This document shows, piece after piece, positions 5,111 through 20,267 of a stretch of 45,761 nt of DNA; the first letter of the stretch is position 1; each line of letters begins with the position of its first letter. The position numbers were made by a program, and so were the translations under genes. This stretch comes from an uncultured Alphaproteobacteria bacterium (lineage in GTDB: Bacteria > Pseudomonadota > Alphaproteobacteria > RS24): assembly GCA_938091085.1 (NCBI GenBank), contig CALKOC010000046.1, positions 1 to 45,761 of the forward strand. Reading direction: 5' to 3'. A model generated the notes under the pieces. That model was not told the DNA's origin, did no database searches, and saw nothing but the letters and a program-made list of their open reading frames with translations.

Positions 5111-5210
5111 TGCGCCGCACAATAAGCCTGTTTTATGACTTAAACAAGCAATGCCCCTCATCCAAAGCCAATAAATAAACGTAAAGAATATATCATAATA
5201 CAGCTTGTGC

Positions 5211-5238
5211 TTGACCCAAGATAGGCAGAAACTATATT
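5211..5238 (+). promoter_or_regulatory. Putative sigma-70 promoter for folE-hisI
   Basis: TTGACC (5211-5216) and TATATT (5233-5238) are separated by 16 bp. This is the best promoter-like pair in the spacer, and it points at folE with a leader of roughly 185 nt. Confidence 0.5.
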
Positions 5239-5382
5239 TTGTAGCTTGTTAGGGGTTTTACGCAAAACCCTATGCATGATTTAGCGGCGAACACTTTTAA
5301 GCTTCATGGCATAAGCCATGGTATGTGGGTGCCAGAATAGAACACGGGCATTTGATACGGGCCAGAAAATCCCATGAAAATG

Positions 5383-5420
5383 TGCCTGACGTAGGCCGGG
5401 ACGTTATTTCCAGGCAAAAG
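5383..5420 (+). promoter_or_regulatory. Candidate THF-II (folE motif) riboswitch or other structured folE leader
   Basis: TGCCTG (5383-5388) can pair with CAGGCA (5411-5416), and inside it ACGT (5389-5392) can pair with ACGT (5401-5404) around an AGGCCGGG loop, leaving TATTTC unpaired on one side. Alternatively GCCT (5384-5387) can pair with the nearer AGGC (5393-5396) around GACGT, excluding the first structure. The 3' arm ends immediately before AAAAGG, the likely ribosome-binding site of folE. A second class of tetrahydrofolate riboswitches, the folE motif, is known upstream of folE in Proteobacteria, with an internal-loop hairpin that masks the ribosome-binding site. Placement and shape fit; I could not compare it with the covariance model. 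Confidence 0.45.
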
Positions 5421-5430
5421 GCAGAATACA

Positions 5431-6063
5431 ATGGATGTACGAGTAGACAACTCAAAGACTTCTGATGATGTTGTAAATGAGCGAGATGTAAAAGTGGCTA
5501 AACCATCAAGAGAAACAGCCGAGGAGGCTGTCAGAACTCTGATAGCTTGGGCTGGAGACAACCCTGAGCGCGAAGGACTTATTGATACACCCAAGCGTGT
5601 AGTTAATGCTTATCAGGAGTTTTTTGCCGGATACGAAGAAGACCCTGAAGAAGTTTTAGGTCGTACTTTCGAAGATGTTGAAGGTTATGATGATATGGTC
5701 ATGCTTCGCGACATTGATCTAGAAAGTCACTGCGAACATCACATGGTCGCCATTCTCGGCAAGGTGCATATTGCCTATATGCCCGTTGAACGTGTAGTCG
5801 GTATATCGAAGCTAGCACGAGTGATTGAGATTTTCGCCAAGCGTCTACAAACGCAAGAAACCATGACGGCTCAGATTGTAGATTGCATTCAGCGCGTCCT
5901 AGAACCTGCTGGTGTTGCTTTGCTGGTCGATGCAAAACACCAATGCATGACAACACGTGGTATCAAAAAACCTGACGTAGCAACCATTACAACCAGATTT
6001 ACTGGCGTATTTGCTAATGATCCACGCATGGAAGCCCGCTTCCTTGCCATGATTAACAACTAG
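5431..6063 (+). CDS. folE: GTP cyclohydrolase I (type IA)
   Basis: FolE converts GTP to 7,8-dihydroneopterin triphosphate, the first step of tetrahydrofolate synthesis. The 210-residue product has zinc ligands C101 and H104 in SHCEHH and C172 in HQCMTTRG, plus the RLQTQE and TTRFTG blocks of the family. The N-terminal 25 residues are polar and variable, as is usual. Its start follows a modest AAAAGG site 8 nt upstream that lies beside the structured leader described at 5383-5420. hisI follows after 57 bp with a small CCGGTT-TT-AACCGG hairpin (6089-6102) between them. Folate-dependent regulation through the leader is an inference. Confidence 0.97.
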   Translation: MDVRVDNSKTSDDVVNERDVKVAKPSRETAEEAVRTLIAWAGDNPEREGLIDTPKRVVNAYQEFFAGYEEDPEEVLGRTFEDVEGYDDMVMLRDIDLESHCEHHMVAILGKVHIAYMPVERVVGISKLARVIEIFAKRLQTQETMTAQIVDCIQRVLEPAGVALLVDAKHQCMTTRGIKKPDVATITTRFTGVFANDPRMEARFLAMINN

Positions 6064-6120: not shown

Positions 6121-6594
6121 ATGTCAGGTCCATTTTCGGAAAGAATTTCGGTTGAACAGGTCGAGGAAAGCAATGAACTCGCACCTAAATTTGATGTGAA
6201 TGGGTTAATCCCCGTCGTTACAACAGACCATGAAACCGGCGAATTGCTTATGCATGGCTACATGAATGAAGCAGCTTTTCTGAAATCAATCGAAACCGCT
6301 GAAGCTCATTATTATAGTCGCTCGCGCGAGACCATATGGCATAAGGGTGCGACCAGTGGGCTCGTTCAAAATATTGTCGAAATGCGGATTGATGACGATC
6401 AAGATGCCGTATGGTTACGTGTCAAAGTTGCTGGTAACGGTGCCAGTTGTCATGTTGGCTACCGATCCTGTTTTTATCGTTCCGTCCCAACAGGCGACGT
6501 CGATGATAAGCTTACGCTTCAGTTTGAAGAACACGACAAGGTCTTTGACCCGCTAGAGGTTTACGGCGACGCCCCAAACCCTACAAAGCTCTAA
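6121..6594 (+). CDS. hisI: Phosphoribosyl-AMP cyclohydrolase
   Basis: HisI opens the adenine ring of phosphoribosyl-AMP in histidine synthesis. The 157-residue product contains the typical [15 protein letters not shown] stretch (67-80), the metal box DDDQD (91-95), and zinc Cys C110 and C117 in [14 protein letters not shown]. In E. coli the metal box reads D-C-D-N-D and its Cys is a third zinc ligand; here that position is D92. The protein is a stand-alone HisI without the HisE domain. It follows folE on the same strand, an association I know from other alphaproteobacteria, and converges on the CBS gene with a 10 bp gap. Confidence 0.95.
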
Positions 6595-20180: not shown

Positions 20181-20267
20181 TGGTGGCCCCCGCCGGACTT
20201 GAACCGGCACGCCTCATTCGGCCGCAGATTTTAAGTCTGCTGTGTCTACCACTTCCACCAGGGGGCC
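20181..20267 (-). tRNA. tRNA-Leu (anticodon UAA)
   Basis: Read on the minus strand, the 87 nt folds into a class II tRNA. The acceptor stem is GGCCCCC/GGGGGCC with discriminator A and an encoded CCA. The D arm contains GGTGG...GGTAGACAC. The anticodon stem is GCAGA/TCTGC, with loop CTTAAAA holding TAA. A long variable arm is built on GCC/GGC, and the T arm is GCCGG-TTCAAGT-CCGGC. The gene stands alone between mmsB and map. The flanking bases (20122-20180 and 20268-20431) hold no gene that I can support; 20122-20170 has imprecise repeats of ATTGCCTTAATCTAAT. Confidence 0.97.

Follow-up and report, generated by a model that had tools for sequence, protein, structure and literature searches.

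The closest described counterpart of the RNA considered here is the THF-II riboswitch (folE motif, RF02977), a two-stem RNA whose set covers only Rhizobiales and metagenomes and which was tested as a 62-nt construct (PMC6800512). It resides directly before folE, with hisI as the next gene, and carries the Shine–Dalgarno (SD) sequence in the 3′ strand of P1 (PMC6800512, PMC9881143). An asymmetric bulge with conserved letters joins its P1 and P2 stems (PMC6800512), and OFF control of translation has been proposed (PMC6800512, PMC9881143). The THF-I riboswitch (RF01831) also regulates folate genes in other bacteria, but is a three-way junction with a pseudoknot that occurs in Gram-positive species (PMC9881143). 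A further parallel is offered by preQ1 and other short translational riboswitches, in which bistable pairing hides the SD; FolE can feed queuosine synthesis.

We analysed a 45,761-nucleotide stretch of DNA (the window) that is part of a 1.7 Mb alphaproteobacterial genome with an assembly completeness of roughly 91%. Its folE gene (GTP cyclohydrolase I, 5431–6063, + strand; NCBIfam TIGR00063, 203.2 bits, above the cut-off) encodes a protein with 99% identity to FolE of PS1 clade bacterium MED-G50 and 95% to that of IMCC14465, and is followed by hisI (phosphoribosyl-AMP cyclohydrolase, 6121–6594, + strand; NCBIfam NF000768, 145.1 bits). A first-pass annotation of this DNA had remarked on an unusually long folE leader with several hairpins behind a promoter. 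The length is borne out by a gap of around 319 nt to the divergent cysS gene, which starts near 5111, and folding places hairpins at 5252–5271, 5304–5321, 5321–5358 and 5383–5423. A promoter-like pair, TTGACC/TATATT, does lie at 5211–5238. The first of these hairpins may be an element of the DNA rather than of the RNA.

The folE leader shares with THF-II the gene context, the SD within the 3′ strand of P1 and an asymmetric conserved bulge, and by analogy it may work in the same way. In contrast to the THF-II length of roughly 60 nt, the leaders described here span 130–180 nt, contain extra conserved hairpins and include an upstream competing strand; the P1/P2 bulge has invariant letters of its own (RCG). 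Membership in the THF-II class, one of the two options in the first-pass annotation, fails in the Rfam comparison. No Rfam 15 family, whether RF02977, RF01831 or a preQ1 class, matches the window's leader, either at gathering thresholds or at E ≤ 10, none matches the folE leaders of 10 PS1 and 20 other alphaproteobacterial folE loci, and a relaxed-threshold search of four loci gave no match. The sole Rfam match across the window at gathering thresholds is a tRNA gene (20184–20267, minus strand). The RF02977 model had zero matches in 41 relatives and 385 genomes of the class and, having matched nowhere, ran without a positive control; the same applies to a THF-II core pattern, with zero matches in the 385 genomes. 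The exclusion of THF-II is therefore good but not absolute.

A diverged THF-II riboswitch would account for the shared gene, the folE–hisI order, the ribosome-binding site in the right shoulder of P1 and the asymmetric bulge (PMC6800512). We nevertheless consider this reading improbable, given that neither the window nor its relatives match RF02977 at gathering or relaxed thresholds (albeit without a THF-II positive control) and that the homologous leader in Parvibaculaceae is larger and of different architecture. The second option in the first-pass annotation, a new leader, is the better one: the RNA is structured and conserved, and no Rfam family fits it. The leader is an undescribed structured RNA of a known kind that is absent from Rfam. 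In the open-access literature, no paper joins Parvibaculum with riboswitches and none describes this leader.

The conserved folE leader of the PS1 clade

We aligned the folE upstream regions of 22 PS1-family genomes. A 3′ element with the consensus GGGCAu-loop-uGCCUGACGAAUA-[CGGGR CGUAUU YCCCG]-nnnn-GAGGCA-n-AUG is common to 21 of the 22 leaders of this alphaproteobacterial clade. One leader (L022) lacks the element, and in another (L005) the copy is disrupted. The latter, from IMCC14465 (G002), has a weakened P2 and about 55 nt of inserted sequence, in which some pieces are duplicated (GGCAGAATAC is present twice and TGTGCC recurs).

In the window, the conserved leader occupies positions 5278–5431 (+ strand, as are all its parts), as supported by the family alignment and by reciprocal matches with Parvibaculaceae folE leaders, and scores 84.5 bits (E = 8.5e-19) with a PS1 model called R3, whose training set includes the window. 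A degenerate form of the PS1 motif is present at one place in the window and in none of the shuffles, a count that shows uniqueness only, because the pattern was derived from the window's own family. The leader includes a hairpin called HB (UCAUGGC-AUAA-GCCAUGG, 5304–5321), containing the sequence CAUGGCAUAAG that is common to Parvibaculaceae leaders, and continues with a hairpin called Q (GUAU(gu)GGGUGCC with GGCAUUU(g)AUAC, 5321–5358), seen in the fold of the window and in the PS1 comparison. The P1 stem is formed by UGCCU (5383–5387) and AGGCA (5419–5423). Its 3′ strand overlaps the SD sequence AAAGGCA (5417–5423), whose counterpart in relatives is GAGG or AGG shortly before the ATG (5431 in the window). 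Between the strands of P1 lie the P1/P2 bulge (5388–5394), which reads GACG in the window, keeps RCG throughout the clade and is homologous to UGACUUGAACC of Parvibaculaceae, and hairpin P2 (5395–5415), whose loop reads CGUUAUU in the window and CGUAUU in other genera.

The predicted folding energy of the single sequence is ordinary, with z scores relative to shuffles of −0.60 for the whole leader and −0.10 for positions 5340–5440, and support for the structure must therefore be comparative. The first-pass annotation had proposed to look for such support among related folE leaders, and compensatory changes are indeed present. P1 and P2 together are paired in 93.3% of alignment cells, compared with 31–58% when the strands are slid, and 11 cells exhibit both-sided changes, compared with 4.2 in shuffles (0 of 500 shuffles). 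P2 has 97.8% of cells paired and exchanges between G-C and A-U in both directions, and RNAalifold recovers both helices unaided. P1 alone undergoes few changes, including a single both-sided exchange, the compensatory GCCCA/UGGGC in L020, and when it is extended to six pairs its covariation is no higher than in shuffles.

A short P1 that includes the SD, along with ordinary energies, could also be expected of a constitutive leader that senses nothing specific and only holds translation at a fixed rate or reacts to temperature or Mg2+. However, unpaired stretches are conserved across genera and families, which is beyond the needs of a thermometer or a fixed hairpin, and we regard this explanation as unlikely. 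Also conserved are the letters of the P2 loop and the upstream hairpin HB, and a CGUAUC stretch resembling the loop lies just 5′ of HB in several PS1 genera. HB itself is paired in 85.7% of cells, compared with 82.3% in shuffles, and its changes are mostly one-sided, with a C-G to U-A exchange in L020. The conserved loop letters and hairpin are what an RNA-binding protein, such as an autogenously acting FolE or a separate regulator, might produce by recognizing the CGUAUU loop or the CAUGGCAUAAG hairpin and stabilizing the closed SD, and the covariation is equally compatible with such a sensor. A protein is nonetheless a somewhat doubtful candidate: the near-invariant stretches of more than 50 nt in Parvibaculaceae exceed the needs of most protein sites, and there is a single strong copy per genome, at folE.

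A start-stop upstream reading frame within CAUGGCAUAAG (AUG-GCA-UAA, 5306–5314) was considered and rejected, as the frame is lost in relatives (AUGGCAUAUAG, AUGGCAUUAG and GUG variants).

A longer homologous leader in Parvibaculaceae

The sister group Parvibaculaceae carries a longer homologous leader before folE, with a near-invariant core. The near-invariant parts are the promoter-like CTTGAT-N17-TATATGCA, GCAUGGCAUAAGACCCGUGCUUGAUGGGCAAA, UGACUUGAACC, and GGGAAACCCC-AA-GAGAUUGGUC just before the AUG. A second model, R2, finds matches in 36 of 40 genomes of the order to which Parvibaculaceae belongs (27 of the 27 good ones), and in 35 Parvibaculaceae loci examined by tblastn folE lies directly downstream.

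The whole Parvibaculaceae structure exhibits 36 cells with both-sided changes, compared with 10.4 in shuffles (0 of 500). All six pairs of helix P3 have both-sided changes, and an independent count of compensatory changes supports both P3 and P4. Helices within the invariant part barely vary and are neither supported nor contradicted. In one Parvibaculaceae genus (L126 and L158), P3 and a UGAC stretch are missing while the remaining leader is kept, indicating that P3 is a peripheral, removable part. A long-range helix between GACC..CUUGAUGGG and CCCC..CGAG..GGUC, which would hide the SD, is conserved; with compensation limited to about a single event (GGG/CCC replaced by AGG/CCU in these same two leaders), it stands as a suggestion.

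Each model also finds leaders of the other group. When R2 was run on 58 folE loci, it gave eight weak hits beyond its own members, five of which are correctly placed PS1 folE leaders. Conversely, 12 of the 17 hits of R3 on 88 loci (333 kb) are Parvibaculaceae folE leaders, the best with E = 0.0038. Each single hit is weak, and homology between the groups is drawn from the agreement of the hit positions. In the resulting alignment, CAUGGCAUAAG occurs in both groups, Parvibaculaceae UGACUUGAACC corresponds to PS1 UGACGAAUACC, and P4 corresponds to P2. Judged by these correspondences, the PS1 and Parvibaculaceae leaders share an ancestor.

The RNA is confined to one gene. R1, a model of the 3′ element, matches strongly only before folE in the PS1 family (22 genomes), and among 385 genomes of the class, strong R2 matches occur only in Parvibaculaceae. 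Strong copies number one per genome and lie at folE, with no strong match elsewhere in the 385 alphaproteobacterial genomes, which sets the leader apart from preQ1 and other short riboswitches. An exact-pattern search of viral contigs found no copy. On sequence comparison, then, the leader has a hallmark of a riboswitch-type RNA, being a conserved structured RNA with compensatory changes that is tied to one pathway gene.

Competing pairings and possible control of folE

The first-pass annotation had proposed that GCCT at 5384–5387 pairs with one of two AGGC tetramers, at 5393–5396 or at 5412–5415. The three tetramers lie where it placed them, and the GCCT strand is indeed shared between alternative partners, but both named partners differ from the conserved ones. 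The first AGGC is missing in other genera, and this pairing was rejected as unconserved in the family alignment; in place of the second pairing, positions 5413–5415 pair with GCC 5395–5397 within P2. The conserved partners are a third AGGC (5419–5422) and an upstream GGGC (5346–5349). Because the third AGGC overlaps the SD, the stem reported to border the ribosome-binding site in fact contains it.

Pairing of the upstream GGGCA (5346–5350) with UGCCU (5383–5387) forms an alternative helix called P0, which competes with both Q and P1. GGGC can thus pair upstream in Q or downstream in P0, and GCCU can pair upstream in P0 or with the SD in P1. Q is paired in 90% of PS1 cells compared with 71.5% in shuffles (0 of 1,000) and exhibits many exchanges, its strands having been aligned by hand. 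P0 is paired in 87.9% of cells compared with 25–46% when slid; its changes are mostly one-sided and its covariation is not above that of shuffles. P0 and P1 are both retained while sharing GCCU, with weak independent covariation of the two. In the window, the two states have predicted energies of −22.0 and −19.8 kcal/mol, a gap between P1 and P0 of roughly 2 kcal/mol. For most relatives, folding predictions place the P1 state lowest, with a margin that reaches about 9 kcal/mol.

A search of the + strand revealed no terminator, and attenuation by a terminator was rejected on this ground. Because the SD also lies inside P1, translational control is the natural reading. Whether the leader is an unlisted cis-acting RNA that controls folE translation by sequestering the SD, and hence a candidate riboswitch, we judge to be evenly balanced on this comparative evidence. 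If this model is correct, Q together with P1 and P2 would form the OFF state, in which P1 hides the SD. In the ON state, pairing of GGGC (5346–5349) with GCCU (5384–5387) would disrupt Q and P1 and free the SD. A pathway product, likeliest a reduced pterin or folate, would bind the P1/P2 bulge and the P2 loop, or else the 5′ domain, and favour the OFF state, providing feedback on the first committed step. The ON state might depend on the ribosome or on folding kinetics, given that the P1 state is lower in most relatives.

We infer the switching, its direction and the nature of the ligand alike from this arrangement. Given that the RNA occurs at no gene other than folE, feedback by a pathway product is the simplest signal, and reduced pterins or folates come first, with queuosine intermediates or a protein also conceivable. 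Since FolE can feed both pathways, gene content does not separate folate from queuosine intermediates: the HPPK family is present in 14 of 14 genomes and the QueD-type family in 13 of 14. The one genome with no QueD-type (PF01242) match, that of the window (G000), differs in this from all 13 relatives tested; as its assembly is about 91% complete, the gene may just be missing.

More tentatively, and with confidence falling somewhat short of even, we propose that the leader is a folate- or pterin-sensing riboswitch of a third class, one that is restricted to Parvibaculaceae and the PS1 clade and gates the folE ribosome-binding site; its form would be large and conserved in Parvibaculaceae but reduced in their streamlined marine relatives. 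If so, it would be an independent RNA solution, beside THF-I and THF-II, to the feedback control of folate (and queuosine) synthesis at its first committed step, and the shrinkage from Parvibaculaceae to PS1 would illustrate the reduction of a regulatory RNA under genome streamlining. About 55 natural leader sequences are at hand for probing.

The promoter-like region upstream

Upstream of the leader, positions 5247–5279 (+ strand) are homologous to the Parvibaculaceae promoter-like pair CTTGATAG-N-GCTATATGCA, as seen by comparing the two groups. The window counterparts of this invariant −35/−10-like pair are TTGTTA (5247–5252) and CTATGC, and we infer a promoter role for the region. The hairpin at 5252–5271 lies between these sequences and may act as DNA, outside the RNA. 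Conservation of this kind raises the question of whether the region as a whole consists mainly of DNA signals, such as a promoter and an operator, accompanied by chance RNA pairings. Such signals would fit both the invariant pair of Parvibaculaceae and the TGCA palindromes of PS1, but both-sided compensatory changes occur in P3 and P2 and conservation extends to the SD, which makes this account very hard to credit.

At the PS1 promoter position, a TGCA palindrome (TTTGCA-n-TGCAAA) is conserved in leaders L006–L021; its window equivalent is GTTTT-ACGC-AAAAC (5254–5270). Parvibaculaceae have an invariant TTGATA-17-TATATG at the same position. The PS1 palindrome may be an operator or an activator site.
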